A DNA stretch of 53,702 nucleotides. Source: Deltaproteobacteria bacterium (lineage in GTDB: Bacteria > Desulfobacterota > GWC2-55-46). Each line of letters begins with the position of its first letter. The first letter of the stretch is position 1. The stretch covers positions 1-53,702 of the forward strand of contig JACRCC010000036.1 in the NCBI GenBank assembly GCA_016234405.1. The letters run 5' to 3'. Below the pieces are notes generated by a model. That model searched no databases. It was given only the letters and a program-made list of their open reading frames with translations, and was not told the origin of the DNA. The translations under genes and the position numbers were made by a program. Shown here in pieces: positions 6,771 through 30,270 of the stretch.

Positions 6771-6809
6771 AACGAGACCCTCTCCCGTAAAACGGGAGAG
6801 GGTCTCGTT
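6771..6809. terminator. Strong hairpin terminator between convergent genes
   Basis: AACGAGACCCTCTCCCGT and its exact complement are separated by AAA, giving an 18-bp perfect stem 20 bases after the CopD-like gene stop and followed by GCTTTAAT. The T-run is short, so it may be a REP-like hairpin that serves as a terminator. Confidence 0.65.
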
Positions 6810-6886
6810 GCTTTAATCTCCTCTCCCCTACAAGATGCCCCCTTCATTTTATCCCTCCCCTTTTATGGGGGAGATGGATAACGGAT

Positions 6887-8070: not shown

Positions 8071-8409
8071 CTAACTTGCAAAAAAAACTACATGGTCTAT
8101 GGTATCGTCAGGATAAAGTGCAAAATCCTCATATTCTGAACTGTCTTTTTCTATTTGTTTTTTACAAAAAGCATCGATTATTAATTTTGGAACATTTTCG
8201 ATGTCAAACGGCCGTTTGCCTGATTTTTCAACTACAATTTTGAAAGCCCATTTTGCTGTCTTGGAAAATAGGTTTTTCGGAAAGCCCTTAACTGCCGCTT
8301 TTCTAATCTTCTCCCGTTTTTTCTTGTCAGTATGGCCTTTACGCATATCGGCATACGTGAAAGCCTCTCGGTAACAAAAGGAATGCGCTAATTCCTTCGG
8401 CTTAGTCAT
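8071..8409 (-). CDS. RusA-like Holliday-junction resolvase family protein (tentative)
   Basis: A 112-residue protein of lower GC than its neighbours. FDIENVPKLIIDAF (about 69-82) followed by LYPDDTIDHV (about 98-107) resembles the RusA pattern D-[LI]-D-N-x2-K-x3-DA-x(n)-DD, with Glu at the middle acidic position. RusA enzymes cut four-way DNA junctions and are usually phage-borne. ATG 8409 has GGGAG eight bases upstream. It sits between sdhE and the DUF559 gene, interrupting the sdhB-sdhE junction. The match is by eye to a short motif, so the call is uncertain. The 114-base flank to sdhE (7957-8070) is non-coding and AT-rich. Confidence 0.5.
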   Translation of the reverse strand: MTKPKELAHSFCYREAFTYADMRKGHTDKKKREKIRKAAVKGFPKNLFSKTAKWAFKIVVEKSGKRPFDIENVPKLIIDAFCKKQIEKDSSEYEDFALYPDDTIDHVVFFAS

Positions 8410-8496
8410 TATACTCCCTCACGTTATCATTTTATCTAAAGCTTTCCTGCCCTAAGTACAAAGCCCGTAACAGCGCAGGGACACCCCTCCCTGCCT

Positions 8497-8561
8497 CCCC
8501 TTGCAAAGTGGAGGCGATTTTTTACTTCCCCTCCTTGACAAGGAGGGGACTGAGGGGAGGT
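8497..8561. repeat. Double palindrome, left copy flanking the DUF559 gene
   Basis: CCCCTTGCAAAGTGGAGGCGA (first 20 bases CCCCTTGCAAAGTGGAGGCG, at 8497) is followed by CCCCTCCTTGACAAGGAGGGG (palindromic arms CCCCTCCTTG and CAAGGAGGGG, at 8528) and ACTGAGGGGAGGT. The same pair recurs in the same order and orientation at 8973-9041. The DUF559 gene ends inside this copy. Confidence 0.85.
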
Positions 8562-8914
8562 CGGGCGTGTTCCAATATCCTCTCCATAACTCCATCAAGA
8601 TTCTCAAAGACGTCCGTGTTGGTGAACCGCAATACCTTTATTCCGTACGATTCAATCGCCTCTTGCCTTGTAAGGTCGCGCTCTTGCGCGCCCACGGCAA
8701 AATGCGAATCACCGTCAACCTCAATGGCCAGCTTCAAGCCGGGGCAATAAAAATCCAGCACAAAATTCTCGACGCTGTACTTCCGTCTGAACTTGAACCC
8801 TTCGACGCCCTTTCTCCGTAACCTCGACCAGAGCGCGGCCTCGGCCTGCGGCATGTTCTTTCTAAGATGCCTTCGCACCTGTTTCTCGCTTTTTCTGTTG
8901 AAGGCTACGGTCAC
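8522..8914 (-). CDS. DUF559 (Vsr/PD-(D/E)XK-fold) endonuclease-like protein
   Basis: A 130-residue DUF559 protein. MPQAEAALWSRLRRK (about 21-35), FRRKYSVENFVLDFYCP (about 42-58), LAIEVDGDSHF (about 62-72) and VLRFTNTDVFENLDGV (about 94-109) are the family landmarks. The D in VLDFYCP and the E and D in IEVDGD form a plausible PD-(D/E)XK-like active site related to Vsr nicking enzymes. Its biological role is not established. The C-terminal tail PPLSPLLVKEGK is encoded by the flanking palindromic repeat, which suggests the gene moves with, or landed in, that repeat. It lies between sdhB and the RusA-like gene. Confidence 0.85.
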   Translation of the reverse strand: MTVAFNRKSEKQVRRHLRKNMPQAEAALWSRLRRKGVEGFKFRRKYSVENFVLDFYCPGLKLAIEVDGDSHFAVGAQERDLTRQEAIESYGIKVLRFTNTDVFENLDGVMERILEHARPPLSPLLVKEGK

Positions 8915-8972: not shown

Positions 8973-9041
8973 CCCCTTGTAAAGGGGAGGCGAATCCTTT
9001 ATTGCATCCCCTCCTTACCAAGGAGGGGACTGAGGGGAGGT
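8973..9041. repeat. Double palindrome, right copy flanking the DUF559 gene
   Basis: A second copy of the 8497-8561 element with two mismatches in each of its two conserved blocks (8973-8993 and 9008-9041). It ends directly at the sdhB stop codon. Confidence 0.85.
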
Positions 9042-9994
9042 TACCCCTTCCCCTTCTTCCGCTCGCACGCCTCGTAGATCGCCCGCACCTCGGCGATATC
9101 GTTTATCTGCGCGAATACAAGCGGCAGCGGCATCTTGCCGTGCAGCTCCATCTTGAGTCCGAACGGTATCATGCCGAGCGACTTCAAGAACCCCAGGGTC
9201 TTGAAGGTCATGGCCGCCTCATCGAGCCTGCCCACCCGTTTGACCGACTCCGCCATTGCGACCGCGTGTTTTGCGCCATGATTGTCGGTTATGCCTTCCT
9301 TCATTGCCGCGGAGCGCAGAAGTTCGATTGCCTTCAAGGGCGCTACTCCCTTGGGGCAATACTGGGTGCAATGAACGCACCGGACGCAGTCCCACATCCC
9401 GTGCTCGTCCGAGAGTTTATCGAGCCTGCGCCTTGCGTTGCCTTCGCGCACGTCTCCGACGAACCTCCACGCCTTTGCAAGGGCCGCGGGCGCGATGTAG
9501 CGCTTGTCTATCTCGAGGGCGTTGCACTCTCCGTTGCAGCACCCGCACATGATGCACTGCTGGCTCTTGCCGATTGCCTCCAAGTCCTCCGGCAGCACGC
9601 AGACCTTTTCAGCCCCTTCCTTAGGAGTCAGATACGGCGTTATCTTTTCCAGCTTTTCCCAGAACGGGTTCATGTCAACGACAAGGTCTTTCAAGACCGT
9701 ATGATTCGGGAGCGGCTCTATCTCCATCTCGCCGAACTTCTTGACTTCCGGCATAACCTGAGTCGCGCACGCGAGACGCGAAAAACCGTTTATCGTCATC
9801 GCGCACGACCCGCATATCGCTGAGCGGCAAGACTTCCTGAATGACAAAGACGGGTCCTGCTCGTCGGCGATCTTCAGGAGCGCGTCGAGGATCGTCATGC
9901 CCTCCGTGACCTCGACGTCATAGCCCTGCACGAACGGCTCGCAGGTCTCCCGCGACATGGGGTCGCAGCGCTTTATGCGGAATTTTATCTTCAT
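9041..9994 (-). CDS. sdhB: Succinate dehydrogenase/fumarate reductase iron-sulfur subunit
   Basis: A 317-residue protein carrying three Fe-S clusters that pass electrons between the flavoprotein and SdhE. The [2Fe-2S] ligands are in CRSAICGSCAMTINGFSRLAC (segment about 55-76, shown as CRSAICGSC and LAC). CIMCGCCNGEC (about 147-157) and CVRCVHCTQYCPKG (about 204-217) carry the other two clusters. In the middle motif, Cys occupies positions that vary among [4Fe-4S] and [3Fe-4S] enzymes. It is about 70 residues longer than classical SdhB, as in archaeal and epsilonproteobacterial E-type enzymes. The stop abuts the palindrome at 9008-9041. ORF6N and nucleotidyltransferase genes separate it from sdhA. 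Confidence 0.93.
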   Translation of the reverse strand: MKIKFRIKRCDPMSRETCEPFVQGYDVEVTEGMTILDALLKIADEQDPSLSFRKSCRSAICGSCAMTINGFSRLACATQVMPEVKKFGEMEIEPLPNHTVLKDLVVDMNPFWEKLEKITPYLTPKEGAEKVCVLPEDLEAIGKSQQCIMCGCCNGECNALEIDKRYIAPAALAKAWRFVGDVREGNARRRLDKLSDEHGMWDCVRCVHCTQYCPKGVAPLKAIELLRSAAMKEGITDNHGAKHAVAMAESVKRVGRLDEAAMTFKTLGFLKSLGMIPFGLKMELHGKMPLPLVFAQINDIAEVRAIYEACERKKGKG

Positions 9995-10007
9995 GATATA
10001 TCCAATC

Positions 10008-10511
10008 TCAAAAGCCTATCCGCTTTCCGGGTTTCGCCGGAGGCTCGATGAGCTGCTTTATGGCCTCAAAGACTATTTTGAATTGATAGTCGTACTTCTT
10101 CTCCATGTCTTCGAGCTTCCGCTTAAACTCCGTATTCGTCAAGAGCAACTCCCGCAGTTTTGTGAAGGTCCTCATTATCTGAATGTTGACCTGCACGCCC
10201 CTTTTGCTCTTCAAGACGCTCGATAACATGGCGACGCCGTTTTCAGTAAAAGCGCTTGGCAGCTTGCGCGCCCCACCCCAACTTGATATTCCATTTTGGA
10301 ACATCAAGTTTTCTAACTCCTTCCGGGTCAACTGGAACATAAAATCCTCCGGAAAGCGCTCGATGTTCCTCTTGACGGCCTTATTGAGATTACCGGTCGT
10401 GACTCCGTAGAGCGCGGCAAGGTCTTTATCGAGCATCACCTTCCTGCCGCGCATAAGCAGTATCTTACTCTCGATTACTTCCTGCGGCGCTAACGCGGTT
10501 CCCTTGACCAT
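10008..10511 (-). CDS. ORF6N-domain DNA-binding protein
   Basis: 167 residues from ATG 10511. The ORF6N domain spans about 10-95: [48 protein letters not shown], then [18 protein letters not shown]6N is found in phage and plasmid proteins beside KilA-N and BRO domains and is thought to bind DNA. The C-terminal part (about 105-150) is charged and likely coiled coil. The reading frame is open for 67 more codons upstream, but that extension is compositionally odd and overlaps the 89-residue gene in another frame, so it is rejected. It sits 13 bases before sdhB and 16 bases after the preceding accessory gene. Confidence 0.85.
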
Positions 10512-10524
10512 GTTTCTTAAAATT

Positions 10525-10553
10525 CCCCTAATACTTCCTCTCCTCGGGCTTGA
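10525..10553. repeat. 29-bp direct repeat of the sdhA 3' end, distal copy
   Basis: CCCCTAATACTTCC followed by TCTCCTCGGGCTTGA is identical to 11342-11370. It encodes the C-terminal KPEERKY and stop of the 89-residue gene. The two copies are 817 bp apart and bracket the nucleotidyltransferase module. Confidence 0.92.
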
Positions 10554-10797
10554 CCGCCATCTTTCCCCTGCACCTTGCCCTCGCGTCCTCCGGCAAGTCT
10601 TCTCCGTAAAACCTGTCGAATACCGCAAGGCGGACATCCGCGTCCGACAGGCCGGGCGCATTGTCCACGATAGCCGCCGTGACAAGCCGTTTTGCGGTTT
10701 CAAACATGTCAAACCCCATTCTGAGACGCTCCGTGCCGCTCCTTGAGAGCATCATGTCGAAAAACCGCTCCTCAACCTCTTGGCTCGTGTCCTTCAT
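10528..10797 (-). CDS. Small conserved partner of the nucleotidyltransferase
   Basis: 89 residues, no named domain recognised. [20 protein letters not shown] (about 15-34) and [18 protein letters not shown] (about 55-72) resemble small proteins often encoded next to nucleotidyltransferases. This is a memory-based impression, not a search result. The start overlaps the nucleotidyltransferase stop by four bases (ATGA), so the two are translationally coupled. The last residues KPEERKY and the stop are identical to the end of SdhA because they lie in the 29-bp direct repeat. It may be the second half of a toxin-antitoxin-like pair. Confidence 0.7.
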
Positions 10798-11336
10798 GAC
10801 CTCACCATTTCATACGCTTCCCTGACGCCTATAATCCCGGCCCATTTTTCAAGATACTCATAATCCAAAACCTTGACCGATTTCATGAGATTTTTGACGT
10901 CGTTCATCTGCATCTCCGACTCCGTCTCCCGCGCCCAAAACAATTTGGACAGTATCAAATCCTCCGGCGACACGACGTAAAGCGGCGCGCCCTCGAATAG
11001 TATCCTCCTCTTCCGGTCGAACTCCCCTATCCTGTACGGGTCGTCCTTGCGCACGATAAAGTCTATCTTTACGACCGCTTCGAGGTGAATGACGTTGAAC
11101 ATGCCGCGTTCTTTTACGGCCGATGCCATCGCGTCCATGTCAGCGTAAAAATCCTCCTTGAAAAGTTCGAAGACCCTCCGGGCGTCTTTTTCGCTCAACT
11201 CAACGACGATGTCAACGTCGCGCGTCATCCTCGGTATCGAGTAGAAATTCGCCGCGACCGAACCGGTTATCATGTAGCCTATCCCGGCGCCGTCGAGCCT
11301 GCGCGCAACTTCTTTTATTACATCCGCCTCCGTCAA
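10794..11336 (-). CDS. Nucleotidyltransferase (DUF6036/AbiEii-like fold)
   Basis: A 180-residue protein of the polymerase-beta-type nucleotidyltransferase superfamily. ITGSVAANFYSIPRMTRDVD (about 23-42) matches the GS-x(n)-[DE]-x-D pattern of these enzymes, with the acidic pair in RDVDIVV; FIVRKDDPY and VVSPEDLILSKLFWA follow. Members of this group include AbiEii-like toxins and antitoxin-type NTases that modify nucleic acid or protein with nucleotides. Target unknown. It begins eight bases beyond the sdhA stop, right beside the 29-bp direct repeat, and overlaps its 89-residue partner by four bases. The pair looks like a mobile two-gene cassette inserted into the sdhA-sdhB junction. Confidence 0.85.
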   Translation of the reverse strand: MTEADVIKEVARRLDGAGIGYMITGSVAANFYSIPRMTRDVDIVVELSEKDARRVFELFKEDFYADMDAMASAVKERGMFNVIHLEAVVKIDFIVRKDDPYRIGEFDRKRRILFEGAPLYVVSPEDLILSKLFWARETESEMQMNDVKNLMKSVKVLDYEYLEKWAGIIGVREAYEMVRS

Positions 11337-11341
11337 GGCCC

Positions 11342-11370
11342 CCCCTAATACTTCCTCTCCTCGGGCTTGA
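11342..11370. repeat. 29-bp direct repeat at the sdhA 3' end, proximal copy
   Basis: Identical to 10525-10553. It covers the sdhA stop codon and its last eight or so codons. A duplicated gene end of this kind is what site-specific insertion at a coding 3' end leaves behind. Confidence 0.92.
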
Positions 11371-13018
11371 ACCGCGTGATTGCCGCGTCTCTATAGCTTA
11401 TCTTTAACTTCCCGTCCTCTTTCCTCACGACCGTATGTTTGAGCCACTTGTCATCGTCCCTCTTCGTAAAATCCGTCCTTGAGTGCGCGCCGCGGCTCTC
11501 CTCCCTGTTTAACGCGCCGGTGAGTATGGCCTCGGATATATCGAGCATGTGGCCGACTTCAAAGAGATGCAAAAGCTCTGAGTTGAAGTTATTTCCCTTA
11601 TCCGACAGACTGGCCTTTTTTATCCTTTCTTTTAATTCCATTATTTTATCAAGCCCGGCCGCGAGGCGTTCTTTATTTCTGTAGACCCCCGCGTTTGACG
11701 CCATTGTCCCGGCCATCTCGCGCCTTATGACCGCAACGTCTTCGCCCTCGTCTCTCCGTAAGACGTCGGCCACGTCGTGGCCCGCGCCGTTTAAGGCCGA
11801 GGCTGGAAACGCGGGCAATGACGCCCCGGCGCAGAACTCTATCGCCTTTTTCCCTGCCCTCCTGCCAAATACGATTGTCTCAAGGAGGGAATTCCCGCCG
11901 AGCCTGTTTGCGCCGTGCACGCTCACGCACGCGGCCTCTCCTGCGGCAAAGAGGCCCGCGACGTTGGTCATGCCGTCCGCGTCCGTCTTAACCCCGCCCA
12001 TCGAATAATGCGCCCCGGGCTTCACGGGTATCGGGGCCTTCACCGGGTCAATGCCCGCAAAGGTTATCGAGAGTTCCCGTATCTGCGGAAGTTTCTCGTT
12101 TATCTTTTTTTCCCCGAGGTGGCGGAGGTCCAAAAGCACGCATCCGTCCACGCCCCGGCCCTCTTCTATCTCTGTCTGCTCGGCGCGGCTCACCACGTCG
12201 CGTGAGGCAAGCTCCAGCGCCCGCGGCGCGTATTTGGACATAAACCTCTCGCCGAGGGAATTTATAAGATACCCGCCCTCGCCCCTGCACCCCTCGGTCA
12301 TTAGTATGCCGGTGCGCTGCAATACGGTCGGATGGAACTGCACGAACTCCATGTCCATCAATTCGGCCCCGGCGTCATTTAAAGCAAGCCCCATGCCGTC
12401 GCCCGTGGAAGACAGCGAATTCGTGGTCGTCCTGAAGACCCTGCCGTAACCGCCGGTGGCAATCACTACGGCCTTTGAATGGAGCCGGTGGAGCCTGCCG
12501 GTTGCAAGCTCCACGGCGATTACCCCGCACACCTTCTCTCCGTTTTTAACGAGCCTTATGACGTGCCATTCGTCATACAGGGCGATGGAATGTTTCAGGA
12601 GCTGCTCGTACATGACGTGCAGGAGCGCGTGGCCGGTCCTGTCCGCGAGATAACACGTCCTCGGATACCCCGCGCCCCCGAATGGACGTTGCGCGATGTT
12701 GCCCTCCGCGTCGCGGCTGAAGACCGCGCCCATCTTTTCAAGGGCGTAGATGTCGGACGGGGCCTCCCTGCACATGACCTCTATGGCGTCCTGATCCCCG
12801 AGGTAGTCGCTGCCCTTGACCGTGTCGAAGGCGTGGTTCTCCCACGAGTCGGTTGTTTTCAGGGCAGCGTTTATGCCGCCCTGAGCCGCGACCGAGTGGC
12901 TCCGCACGGGGTAGACCTTCGAGACCATTGCAACGCTCAACCCCGCGGCCGCGGCCTCGATGGAGGCCCTCATGCCCGCAAGCCCGCCGCCTATCACTAT
13001 GATGTCGTGGATGACCAA
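11345..13018 (-). CDS. sdhA: Succinate dehydrogenase/fumarate reductase flavoprotein subunit
   Basis: A 557-residue flavoprotein. [18 protein letters not shown] (about 6-23) is the FAD-binding Rossmann motif. [13 protein letters not shown] (about 41-53) has the His that carries covalent 8-alpha-histidyl FAD. Substrate-site segments follow: [20 protein letters not shown] and [10 protein letters not shown], then [10 protein letters not shown]. The start is TTG 13018 with GGAGG four bases upstream. A small GGCGGG/CCCGCC hairpin lies just before the ribosome-binding site. A terminator separates it from kor, so it likely has its own promoter or relies on read-through. With SdhB and SdhE it forms a complex linking succinate/fumarate to quinones; the direction cannot be told from sequence. 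Confidence 0.94.
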
Positions 13019-13740: not shown

Positions 13741-14607
13741 CTACTTTGCCTTGGCCTTTTCCATGACAAGGGTCTCATACTGCTCGCAGTACTCGGGCCT
13801 GTCCACCTTATGTAAGACCCCGCGGAGCATCTTGCCCTGAACCTTCTCGGGCGGGAGTTTGTCCACCTGTTTGACGGACACGGTCTTGTCCTTTTCAATC
13901 TCTTCCATCATCTGCGAGGCGCCCTTGAATTTATTCATCCTGCCGAAATAAGTCGGGCAGGCGTCAATGATGTCAACGACGGACGTGCCCTTGTGCTCCA
14001 ACGCCTCCTGTATGGTCTTTTCCAATTCGAGCGTGTGATACGCGGTCCCGCGCGCGACAAACGACGCGCCGGACGCCTTTGCCATCTCGCACGCGTCAAA
14101 GGGCGGTTCGATATTGCCGTAGCGGGACGTCGTGGCCTGTGAACCTATGGGCGTGGTCGGCGAATACTGCCCGCCCGTCATGCCGTAAGTGGCGTTCGTA
14201 AAGACGAGCACGGTTAAATCAATATTGCGTCTGCACGTGTGGATGAAGTGATTGCCGCCGATGGCGAGCGCGTCGCCGTCTCCGGTGACCACGATGACCT
14301 TCAATTTCGGGTTTGCGAACTTCACGCCCGTTGCAAACGAAAGCGCGCGGCCGTGGAGGGTGTGAAGGGTGTTGAAGTCAACGTATCCCGGAGTCCTCGA
14401 TGAGCAGCCGATGCCTGAGATTACGCATACGTTGTCTTTGTTGAGTCCGGCGTTGTGTATGGCCCGCAGCATGGCCTTCAACACTATGCCGTGTCCGCAG
14501 CCCGGACACCAGATGTGCGGGAGCTTATTGGGCCTTAGATACTTGTTGTAATCGAAAGGGACGCTTACCTTTTCTTTCTTCACAACGCCGCCGGTTGGTG
14601 AGGACAT
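13741..14607 (-). CDS. korB: 2-oxoacid:ferredoxin oxidoreductase beta subunit (TPP-binding)
   Basis: A 288-residue subunit. WCPGCGHGIVLKAML (about 33-47) supplies Cys ligands, and GDGDALAIGGNHFIHTCRRN (about 109-128) is the thiamine diphosphate/Mg2+ motif GDG-x(n)-N. NATYGMTGGQYSPTTP follows. Reductive carboxylation of succinyl-CoA at this site is a defining reaction of the reverse TCA cycle. The enzyme is oxygen-sensitive in most lineages, consistent with an anaerobe. It is separated from korA by a 132-base gap holding one copy of a 66-base dispersed repeat. Confidence 0.94.
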   Translation of the reverse strand: MSSPTGGVVKKEKVSVPFDYNKYLRPNKLPHIWCPGCGHGIVLKAMLRAIHNAGLNKDNVCVISGIGCSSRTPGYVDFNTLHTLHGRALSFATGVKFANPKLKVIVVTGDGDALAIGGNHFIHTCRRNIDLTVLVFTNATYGMTGGQYSPTTPIGSQATTSRYGNIEPPFDACEMAKASGASFVARGTAYHTLELEKTIQEALEHKGTSVVDIIDACPTYFGRMNKFKGASQMMEEIEKDKTVSVKQVDKLPPEKVQGKMLRGVLHKVDRPEYCEQYETLVMEKAKAK

Positions 14608-14640
14608 ATCGAAACCTCCAAGACCGTTATCGGTTAACGG

Positions 14641-14706
14641 TTAAAGCAGTTATCAGTAAACGGTTATCGGTTATCAGTGAAGGTAAAAGGCAATCGTCCT
14701 TAAACC
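14641..14706 (-). repeat. 66-base dispersed repeat, copy 1 (inverted relative to 31312-31377)
   Basis: Starts TTAAAGCAGTTATCAGT and ends ATCGTCCTTAAACC. The other copy, on the opposite strand at 31312-31377, matches at 62 of 66 positions. Flanking sequence continues with GATAACTGATAACCG words, giving internal inverted symmetry. It fills the korB-korA gap. Confidence 0.88.
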
Positions 14707-14739
14707 GATAACTGATAACCGTCCAGCGATAACCTGATT

Positions 14740-27292: not shown

Positions 27293-27299
27293 ATCTTTA

Positions 27300-27409
27300 T
27301 GTAGGATGGGTGAAGCGCAGCGCACCCATCAAAACCTTATTCCAAGTTCATCCCTTTGATAATCTTCGGTTCCATATCTCCCCAATCCTGAGAATACCAT
27401 CCTCTTTCC
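27300..27409 (-). pseudogene. Duplicated 3' fragment of the RAYT gene
   Basis: These 110 bases are identical to 27549-27658 and contain the last codons, stop and downstream GATGGGTG/CACCCATC hairpin of the RAYT transposase gene, without its catalytic part. Confidence 0.92.
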
Positions 27410-27459
27410 TACTCCGCTTGACCCAACCTACTGCTGTCAACTGATAACCGTCTTAAAAC

Positions 27460-27546
27460 GCGTTTATCGCCGCAAACACCTGCTCGTCCGTATAACCCGC
27501 AAGGTCTATTGATTTACTTCTGCACGCCGCAACGCAAACCCCGCAG
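27460..27546 (-). pseudogene. Duplicated 3' fragment of hdrA
   Basis: 87 bases identical to 28304-28390, encoding the last 29 or so residues of HdrA; it ends in TAA where the intact gene has TAG. With 27300-27409 it shows that a RAYT-hdrA-end segment was duplicated and one copy lost most of the RAYT gene. Confidence 0.92.
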
Positions 27547-27585
27547 TATGTAGGATGGGTGAAGCGCAGCGCACCCATCAAAACC

Positions 27586-28125
27586 TTATTCCAAGTTCAT
27601 CCCTTTGATAATCTTCGGTTCCATATCTCCCCAATCCTGAGAATACCATCCTCTTTCCACACAACGACGAAATGAACTATGCGGCCATTTTGCAGAGGAA
27701 TCAACAAGACCATGTTTTACCGGATTGTAGTGGATATAATCCATATGTCTTTGCCAGTCATCTTCATCCCTGACGAGATGCTCCCAATACCTTCTTTGCC
27801 ATATTGCCTTTTCATCCTTTGATTGTCTTGACTGACTGCTTGCTGCACCATCAAAGCCTTTACATAACCTGCTAAAGTAATGCTTAATCAAGCGCCACCT
27901 CGTCGGGAAATCATCGTCATCTTCGGGCAATTGCCATATACAATGAATATGGTCAGGCAATATCACAATCCCGTCTATTTCAAACGGCCTTTTACGCCTT
28001 ATATGGTCAAATGCAGCCCGGAGGCGGTCTACATTTTCAGGAATGGTCAATATCGGGTGTCTTTCATGCGTAACCACGGTAAAGAAATAGCAGCCTCCCT
28101 TTTGCCATGCCCGCCGATATTCCAT
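27586..28125 (-). mobile_element. REP-associated tyrosine transposase (RAYT, IS200/IS605-like)
   Basis: A 179-residue Y1 transposase of the REP-associated group. MEYRRAWQKGGCYFFTVVT opens the protein, ILPDHIHCIWQLPE (about 56-69) has the HUH metal site, and HMDYIHYNPVKHGLV (about 127-141) has the catalytic Tyr. RAYTs nick single-stranded DNA at REP palindromes and are single-copy domesticated enzymes, not ordinary insertion sequences. Here REP-like hairpins lie on both sides (28142-28296 and 27553-27579), which fits the family. The gene is inserted between hdrA and flxD. Its 3' end is duplicated at 27300-27409. Confidence 0.92.
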
Positions 28126-28141
28126 ACTTCGATGTCCTTTG

Positions 28142-28296
28142 CTGTGTTGGGTCCGCGGAGTTTACCCCATAATTGATATGGGGCTTGATCCAACCTTGCC
28201 GTGTTGGGTCCGCTGCGCTTGACCCAACCTACTCGCTCATCGCCTGATACCCGTTTTAGGACGTAGGATGGGTGAAGCGAAGCGCACCCATCAAAA
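28142..28296. repeat. REP cluster between the RAYT gene and hdrA
   Basis: Contains GTTGGGTCCGC...GCTTGACCCAACC (28203-28230), CCCCATAATTGATATGGGG (28163-28181) and GATGGGTG...CACCCATC (28267-28292). The last recurs at 27305-27330 and 27554-27579. These are plausible substrates of the adjacent RAYT. The last hairpin ends just before the hdrA stop. Confidence 0.82.
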
Positions 28297-30270
28297 CTAA
28301 AAGGCGTTTATCGCCGCAAACACCTGCTCGTCCGTATAACCCGCAAGGTCTATTGATTTACTTCTGCACGCCGCAACGCAAACCCCGCAGCCCTGACACA
28401 CGCCGTCGTTGACCTTGGCGAGCCGCCGGACGACCGTGCCCTGCCTGTTCTTCACTCCGTCTTTTTCAATCGCCGAATACGGACACGCAATAACGCAGTC
28501 CCAGCAGGCGTTGCAGGTAGTCTTATTTACGAGCGCGGTAATCGGCTCTCTCGTCATCTCGCTCGCGGAGAAAAGCGCCAAAGCCTTGCTCGCGGCAGCC
28601 GAGCCTTGCGCCACGGAATCCGGTATGTCCATTGGCCCCATGCACGTGCCCGCGAGGAATATCCCGGCCGTTACGGTCTCAACGGGCCTCAGCTTGGGAT
28701 GGTATTCGTTGTAGAACTTGTATTTGTCGCAGCCTATGCCGAGTTTTTGCGCCAAAGAATCTGCGCCATCCCTCGAAACTATGGCCGTTGCAAGCACGAC
28801 CATGTCGGCCTCTATCTCGACCTGACTCCCGGATAAAGTGTCCGCGCCCTGAACGACTACCTTGCCGTCTTTTTCATATACGCGGGAAACGCGGCCTCTG
28901 AGATACATTGCCCCGTCGCGCTCGATGGCCCTTCTCACGAATTCCTCGTAGCGTTTGCCGCCTGAGCGTATGTCCATATAAAAAACGTAGGACTGGCCTC
29001 CATGCACCTTGTGCGAATAGAGCATCGTGTGCTTGGCCGTGTACATGCAGCAGACCTTCGAGCAGTATGACACGCCCTTTTTCTCGTCCCTCGAGCCTAC
29101 GCACTGGATGAATACTACGCTCTGGGGAACACGGCCGTCGGACGGGCGCCGTATCTCGCCGCCCGTGGGGCCGGACGAGGACGCGAGGCGCTCGAACTGC
29201 ATGCCGTTTATCACGTCTTTTATTCTGCCGTAACCGTACTCGCCGAACCTCTCGTTGGGCATGAGCTGATAGCCGGTTGCAACGACTATGGCGCCGAATT
29301 CCTCGGTTACTATCTTGTCAACTTGCTTAAAATCAATGCACTTGGGGCCGCAAACGAGCGCGCACGCCCCGCACTTGTCCTTCTGTATTTTAGGGCAGTT
29401 CGGCGCGTCTCTGACCGGGATATTCGGGACCGACTGCGGGAACGGCGTATAGATGACCTTACGTTTTGCAAGCCCCATCTCAAAGGCGCTCTCGGTCTTG
29501 AACGGGCACTTCTCTATGCACTCGCCGCAGCCCGTACAGAGGTCTTCGTTGACGTATCTCGCTTTCTTGCGTATCTGAACTCGAAAGTTGCCGATGTAGC
29601 CCTCGACCTTGACGATTTCGGAGTAGGTGTAGAGCGTTATGTTCTCGTGCAGCTCGGCCTCGACCATCTTGGGCGTCAAGATGCACTGCGAGCAGTCCAT
29701 TGTCGGAAAGGTCTCGGACAGGCGCGCCATATTGCCGCCGATGGATGGTTCTTTTTCCACGAGCACGACCTCTATGCCGCCGTCGGCCATGTCGAGCGCG
29801 GCCTGTATCCCGGCGATGCCTCCGCCTATGACGAGGCCGCGCTTTTTGACGGGTATCTTTATCTTTTTGAGGGGCTTGTTCTTCTTGAGCCTCTCAATCG
29901 TCATGCGGGTGAGGTCAATTGATTTTATCGTCCCCGCCTTTTTCGTGCTGTCATGGTGCACCCACGAGCACTGCTCCCTGATGTTCGTTATCTCGCACTT
30001 GTAAGGATTCAACCCGGCGGCCTCCGCGGCCTTGCGGAATGTCTTCTCGTGCATGTGCGGGGAGCAGGCCGAGACAATGATTGAATCGAGCTTGTTGTCC
30101 TTGATGGCGTTCCTGAGCATCTCCTGCCCCGGCGACGAGCACATGAACTTGTAGTCGCACGTGTAGACCACGCCGGGGAGCTTGCTCATCTCTCCCGCCA
30201 CTTTTTTGGTGTCAACGGTCGCGGCGATGTTATTCCCGCACTGGCATACGAATACGCCTATACGCGGCAT
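28297..30270 (-). CDS. hdrA: Heterodisulfide reductase subunit A (bifurcating flavoprotein)
   Basis: 657 residues, full family length. The N-terminal domain starts IGVFVCQCGNNIAATVD. The FAD site is GLVIGGGIAGIQAALDMADG (about 145-164). CSQCILTPKM (about 197-206) is the HdrA cluster motif. Two inner [4Fe-4S] motifs are CTGCGECIEKCPF and CGACALVCGPKC (about 247 and 300), and the C-terminal ferredoxin part has CNACWDCVIACPY and CQGCGVCVAACRS. No selenocysteine is needed. HdrA flavin splits electron pairs between ferredoxin and the HdrBC branch. It is coded between hdrB and the RAYT-interrupted flxD. Confidence 0.95.
   Translation of the reverse strand: MPRIGVFVCQCGNNIAATVDTKKVAGEMSKLPGVVYTCDYKFMCSSPGQEMLRNAIKDNKLDSIIVSACSPHMHEKTFRKAAEAAGLNPYKCEITNIREQCSWVHHDSTKKAGTIKSIDLTRMTIERLKKNKPLKKIKIPVKKRGLVIGGGIAGIQAALDMADGGIEVVLVEKEPSIGGNMARLSETFPTMDCSQCILTPKMVEAELHENITLYTYSEIVKVEGYIGNFRVQIRKKARYVNEDLCTGCGECIEKCPFKTESAFEMGLAKRKVIYTPFPQSVPNIPVRDAPNCPKIQKDKCGACALVCGPKCIDFKQVDKIVTEEFGAIVVATGYQLMPNERFGEYGYGRIKDVINGMQFERLASSSGPTGGEIRRPSDGRVPQSVVFIQCVGSRDEKKGVSYCSKVCCMYTAKHTMLYSHKVHGGQSYVFYMDIRSGGKRYEEFVRRAIERDGAMYLRGRVSRVYEKDGKVVVQGADTLSGSQVEIEADMVVLATAIVSRDGADSLAQKLGIGCDKYKFYNEYHPKLRPVETVTAGIFLAGTCMGPMDIPDSVAQGSAAASKALALFSASEMTREPITALVNKTTCNACWDCVIACPYSAIEKDGVKNRQGTVVRRLAKVNDGVCQGCGVCVAACRSKSIDLAGYTDEQVFAAINAF

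Follow-up and report, generated by a model that had tools for sequence, protein, structure and literature searches.

The e14 element and phage 21 in icd are integrative elements located at coding 3' ends; there, as at the locus described here, the end of the target gene is duplicated and the gene remains whole. A different kind of gene movement has been described for restriction-modification (RM) genes. According to passages in three articles (PMC3874152, PMC3031569, PMC1643837), which cite Nobusato et al. 2000 and Furuta et al. 2010 for target-duplicating RM insertion, these genes insert with long, variable target duplications of about 100 bp, unlinked to mobile elements, and the target-duplicated forms are expected to amplify in tandem. 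RM pairs have also been reported within operons (PMC4615327). As regards gene content, the relevant system is the toxin-antitoxin (TA) pair MenAT1 (Rv0078A-Rv0078B) of M. tuberculosis, in which a PRxTRDxD motif houses the phosphoacceptor threonine of MenT1 and the N-terminal helix of MenA1 alone is reported to be enough for toxin inhibition (PMC11375011).

The locus considered here lies in a window of 53,702 nucleotides (the whole stretch of DNA analysed) and bears on how stand-alone TA pairs without a transposase get to new chromosomal sites. A foreign gene pair separates sdhA from sdhB and is followed by a duplicate of the sdhA end; relatives have the two genes uninterrupted, and similar scars are present at other genes. 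The features are:

9041..9994, minus strand: sdhB, iron-sulfur subunit (PRK12577, 1.9e-78), directly after sdhA in relatives
10008..10511, minus strand: ORF6N-domain gene (PF10543, 5.2e-34), starting 13 nt past copy B
10525..10553, minus strand: copy B of the 29-bp repeat, source of the antitoxin C-terminus and stop codon
10528..10797, minus strand: antitoxin-like protein, 89 aa; residues 1-81 form the family domain, and KPEERKY with the stop is evidently the copied sdhA tail
10794..11336, minus strand: MenT1-like nucleotidyltransferase (NTase), presumed toxin gene, 180 aa (DUF2204/DUF6036; 8an4 by profile; predicted model)
11342..11370, minus strand: copy A of the 29-bp repeat, native sdhA 3' end and stop plus GGGG
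11345..13018, minus strand: sdhA, succinate dehydrogenase/fumarate reductase flavoprotein subunit (TIGR01812, 1.8e-233), the intact target gene; its RFKPEERKY tail is kept in relatives

Positions 10525-10553 and 11342-11370 carry the same 29-mer, with 788 bp in between and an offset of 817 bp. On the coding (minus) strand the repeat reads TCAAGCCCGAGGAGAGGAAGTATTAGGGG, which comprises the last bases of sdhA, stop codon included, and then GGGG. Target DNA is directly duplicated on both flanks of the insert, exactly over 29 bp: all 29 bases are still the same in the two copies, silent positions included, and the identity grows to 34 columns (GCGG(T)TCAAG...) when one gap is allowed. The repeat score (61, against a shuffled maximum of 29) is far beyond chance, and a search of the whole 2.04-Mb genome with up to 3 mismatches found the 29-mer at these two places only. 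The NTase gene starts with TTG 8 nt past the sdhA stop, and its own stop overlaps the antitoxin start (ATGA). Direct comparison bore out the identical copies and the 788-bp spacing given in a preliminary description of this DNA. The coordinates likewise agree with its claim that the distal copy supplies KPEERKY and the stop of the 89-residue gene. Its statement that the 788 bases hold just two coupled genes was right as to the coupling and needs amending as to the content, the antitoxin gene lying inside only to about codon 81. Promoter and terminator scans of the region gave nothing above shuffles.

Pfam matches of the 180-residue protein are weak and point to nucleotidyltransferases of unknown function (DUF2204/DUF6036). 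When its family profile was compared with the PDB, the first match was MenT1 of M. tuberculosis (8an4, 8.9e-6). The predicted model (pLDDT 92.4) had 8an5 as its best Foldseek match (E 3.7e-9) and aligned with MenAT1 over 175 residues (VIA Z 17.7, rmsd 3.1), the next family reaching Z 13.6. The protein carries a GS(x13)DxD motif; G25 S26, T38, D40, D42 and D92 are invariant in the alignment of its homologues, and PRxTRDxD is unchanged across them, T38 being the phosphoacceptor position. Model and alignment thus agree in placing the MenT nucleotidyltransferase fold, with its catalytic motif, in this protein. Judged from predicted structure and alignment, the cassette would most fittingly be described as a MenAT1-like toxin-antitoxin pair in which the gene order is reversed. 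It shares with MenAT1 the NTase fold over the entire chain, the PRxTRDxD motif (PMC10435456, PMC11375011) and a small helical partner. However, identity is about 20 %, the antitoxin gene comes first in MenAT1 whereas the toxin gene is first here, and the partner matches the Rv0078B family weakly, under the Pfam cut-off. The match of the 89-residue protein to the Rv0078B-related antitoxin family PF18993 (1.9e-4) scored 21.8 bits against a cut-off of 27.1; the same family was matched by 4 of its 11 family members (best, 5.9e-6), and chain C of 8an5 came only at rank 12 (E 6.3).

The model of the 89-residue protein has helices at 6-18, 21-46, 52-64 and 70-81, with confidence lowest over the last nine residues; the last predicted helix stops at residue 81, directly before the copied tail. 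Among antitoxin homologues from 11 other genomes of the phylum, likeness to the query runs out at residues 67-83. Several of them terminate at the equivalent of residue 81 or thereabouts, the remainder have unrelated tails, and a KPEERKY end was found in none of the 11 genomes. The preliminary description, which would have been contradicted by this ending in homologues of the 89-residue protein, stands on that point. Since SdhA mostly ends in xPxERxY in dozens of relatives, KPEERKY is, on sequence comparison, native to SdhA and copied to the antitoxin. Because homologues stop near residue 81 and the last model helix spans residues 70-81, the 89-residue protein is, as far as alignment and model indicate, a complete domain lacking its native stop, its final residues and stop codon coming from the copied sdhA end. 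The earlier proposal of an insertion that rebuilds the end of its target gene is upheld to this extent: the sdhA end is duplicated, and the tail passed from sdhA to the antitoxin. An antitoxin has in this way gained a new C-terminus from a target gene. By analogy, the altered end is probably tolerated, since the N-terminal helix suffices in MenA1, whose tolerance of C-terminal loss would permit such an exchange.

In 27 relatives forming a first set, sdhB directly follows sdhA; so it does at 64 of 80 loci in a second collection, overlapping the first, with gaps of -10 to 381 bp. The distance is 1350 bp in this genome only, where the NTase, 89-residue and ORF6N genes intervene. The search for empty sites suggested in the preliminary description was thus answered by relatives at family distance, which have sdhA-sdhB without an insert and a single sdhA end; the empty site is known at that distance only. 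The ORF6N gene is missing between sdhA and sdhB of relatives. Inspection by eye detected no shared leader or repeat around its neighbours. Because the gene occurs sporadically in the family and does not resemble the cassette in sequence, it probably came in by an insertion of its own; its position beside the cassette blurs the original junction. One-step insertion with target duplication would predict an empty allele of the form sdhA end - AATTTTAAGAAAC - ORF6N. In several relatives (L005, L006, L011, L017, L018, L021) the sdhA stop codon is where a dispersed repeat with a start like CAGGCTGCTGAAAAAG sets in, as if gene ends attracted repeat elements in this family. Downstream of sdhB, a DUF559 (endonuclease-like) gene (window 8522-8914) lies between copies of an intergenic repeat, CAAGGAGGGGACTGAGGGGAGGT, at 8539 and 9019.

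The antitoxin was found in 12 of 395 genomes of the phylum, this one counted, and in none of 30 genomes of the family besides this one. Toxin and antitoxin recur together in the other genomes as a dispersed two-gene module. Given this distribution, the pair was probably acquired horizontally. A search for the cassette on phages found none, and plasmids yielded distant NTase homologues only (30-36 % identity, on five plasmids). None of the 11 homologous cassettes elsewhere has a gene-end repeat, so that the cassette, on sequence grounds, is evidently no dedicated mobile element. When the flanking repeats of these 11 were compared with shuffles, L046 alone exceeded its own, with a palindrome-bearing repeat not situated at a gene end.

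A scan for direct repeats in two copies, one across the stop codon of a long gene and the other farther downstream, applied to about 950 kb sampled from the 2.04-Mb genome, returned four cases: sdhA, tolB, a phospholipase-C-like gene and an hdrA-like gene. The same scan of 1.2 Mb from five relatives gave no credible case. The excess over relatives comes from just four events, and the probability that all four would fall in this genome's share of the sample by chance is about 0.04. The sister repeats measure 75-104 bp and are unlike in sequence and length, that at sdhA being 29 bp only:

L156 (G000:C18) 8352-8429 and 6776-6855: repeat of the tolB end, 89 % over about 104 columns with gaps
L163 (G000:C4:40001-58718) 14636-14710 and 13828-13902: repeat of the end of the phospholipase-C-like gene, 89 %
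Window 28298-28390 and 27454-27546: repeat of the end of the hdrA-like gene, 99 %, with a RAYT-type transposase between

The order at the first of these loci (L156 6700-8430) is tolB, then lipoprotein-like, HEPN and MNT genes, the copy of the tolB end, and pal. In 18 relatives tolB lies next to pal, and the distance of about 50 bp from the distal tolB end to pal is usual there. This distal copy is decayed, with frame-breaking indels. At the second (L163 12179-15499), a zinc-dependent phospholipase-C-like gene is followed by a MazE-like/MazF pair and, beyond it, by the 75-bp copy of the gene end; a MazF fragment (L163:12179-12286) lies past the distal gene end, beyond an inverted ATPase gene. 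The third (window 27298-28390) contains a RAYT-type (Y1_Tnp) gene flanked by REP-like palindromes. Its repeated parts are the 93-bp gene end, the pre-RAYT region and 112 bp comprising the RAYT 3' end and REP, and a RAYT remnant (27298-27409) lies past the distal gene end. Read from this arrangement of repeats, the hdrA-like/RAYT locus is apparently what a tandem duplication with internal deletion left behind. Remnants of a second cassette are thus present beyond the distal gene end at the phospholipase-like and hdrA-like loci; none were found at sdhA and tolB (p ~0.18 and ~0.19, respectively). The gene-end copies do not diverge at sdhA and differ by about 11 % at tolB and the phospholipase-like gene. 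The inserts are addiction-type pairs without a recombinase at sdhA (MenAT1-like), tolB (HEPN/MNT) and the phospholipase-like gene (MazEF), the RAYT gene being the exception. The sdhA locus is a well-kept scar that shows both edges of one event in a core metabolic operon, with three more in the same genome.

Some further observations concern the surroundings of such sites. Duplicated remnants of an antitoxin in L194 and of HicB in L167 were not counted, since what is duplicated there belongs to the TA genes themselves and not to a target. In L194 (11515-11788), an mglA-like GTPase gene and a RelBE/ParDE-like pair flank a second copy of the antitoxin's last codons (DEYLADRRKK..), probably left over from an earlier TA copy. 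Six or more Gs seldom follow a stop codon: this holds for 4 of 699 long genes, among them sdhA and the phospholipase-like gene. The four lie at window 11345, L163 14645, L153 16627 and L182 15882, and TA, ORF6N or DUF433-like genes come next at several. The idea that G-run stops are insertion hotspots was dropped: the cases are too few, and G-runs also serve as ribosome-binding sites.

We consider it probable, although by no means assured, that the MenAT1-like pair came to lie between sdhA and sdhB without the help of a recombinase, through an event that duplicated its target, that is, by insertion with long target duplication. The sdhA 3' end would be opened by a staggered break, or by two nicks, offset by about 29 bp. 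The DNA piece joined in would begin shortly ahead of the toxin's ribosome-binding site and reach the antitoxin's last native codons, and fill-in synthesis would leave 29 bp on each side. The sdhA end would then be complete, while the antitoxin, without a stop of its own, would read into the copied tail; the pair lies in the operon's reading direction and near enough to sdhA for translational coupling. Such insertions would survive best at gene ends, because the duplication keeps the upstream gene whole. Once flanked by repeats, this form could amplify in tandem by unequal crossing-over and then decay, which would explain the cassette remnants at the phospholipase-like and hdrA-like loci; a single offset-cut and fill-in event would account for sdhA and tolB. 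Since no gene for Ku turned up, the classical bacterial pathway of end joining drops out. The pair is probably maintained as an addiction module linked to a core operon.

At sdhA, the chief competing account is tandem duplication followed by decay: the pair would once have stood behind sdhA with its own stop, the segment from the sdhA end through toxin and antitoxin would have been duplicated, and the second cassette would then have been deleted, leaving the sdhA end. The microhomology GCGG(T)TCAAG, where the antitoxin 3' end meets the sdhA end, speaks for it, as do the second-copy remnants at two sister loci (RAYT and MazF). It requires two events, however, with a deletion beginning no more than 4 nt from the stop; neither sdhA nor tolB retains a trace of a second copy past the distal end, and the distal tolB end has kept native-like spacing to pal. 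We regard this history as rather unlikely. A lower probability still is given to one-sided homologous recombination with a relative's sdhA-toxin-antitoxin DNA, in which a crossover in sdhA and illegitimate joining into the recipient's sdhA end would make copy A the donor's and copy B the recipient's. Although duplicated gene ends differing in length and divergence would arise in this way without a recombinase, the cassette stands behind sdhA in no relative's genome examined, the frame-breaking indels in the distal tolB copy fit a decaying copy, and the origin of the insertion would merely be shifted elsewhere; it is therefore improbable.

The rebuilt gene end, which resembles attL/attR at gene ends, invites comparison with site-specific integration of a non-autonomous element by a recombinase acting in trans, as in tRNA or icd ends. 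e14 and phage 21, however, carry an integrase and a recurring attachment core, and the sdhA cassette has neither: it contains no recombinase gene, as the preliminary description had observed, and no attachment core is common to several insertions, so that a site-specific integrative element was rejected. The likeness to such integration drawn in that description did not hold up. The 29-mer, to be sought beside other copies of the cassette, accompanies none of the 11, it is unique in the genome, and the sister insertions have unrelated targets and different duplications; neither an attachment site nor a defined non-autonomous element is therefore present. The other origin then suggested, recombination between gene ends, came nearer, the event being seen here as illegitimate and target-duplicating. 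We hold integration in trans to be very improbable. Lastly, the genome is a metagenome bin assembled in 106 contigs and an assembly artefact might be suspected, but a usual sequencing read is far longer than the repeat, each copy sits at the end of an intact gene, and the pattern recurs at independent loci, leaving this explanation scarcely credible.

Insertion with long target duplication at sdhA fits a toxin-antitoxin case of the known but poorly understood gene movement described for RM genes, and links TA mobility to it. It seems conceivable, although doubtful at this stage, that small TA pairs of this lineage reach core operons through a general process, needing no recombinase, in which the 3' end of the gene upstream is duplicated. 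If so, TA pairs would commonly move by insertion with long target duplication, which would be no peculiarity of RM genes, and antitoxins would sometimes take over the last codons and stop of the upstream gene. As far as the RM insertions are described in the passages cited above, the two share an addiction-type pair without its own recombinase, a variable direct duplication of the target and a form that can amplify in tandem. They differ in cargo, RM genes there and a toxin-antitoxin pair here, and in extent, about 100 bp being duplicated in those accounts as against 29 bp at sdhA and 75-104 bp at the sister loci. Unlike in RM insertion, the duplicated piece here is the 3' end of a gene that also terminates the antitoxin gene.
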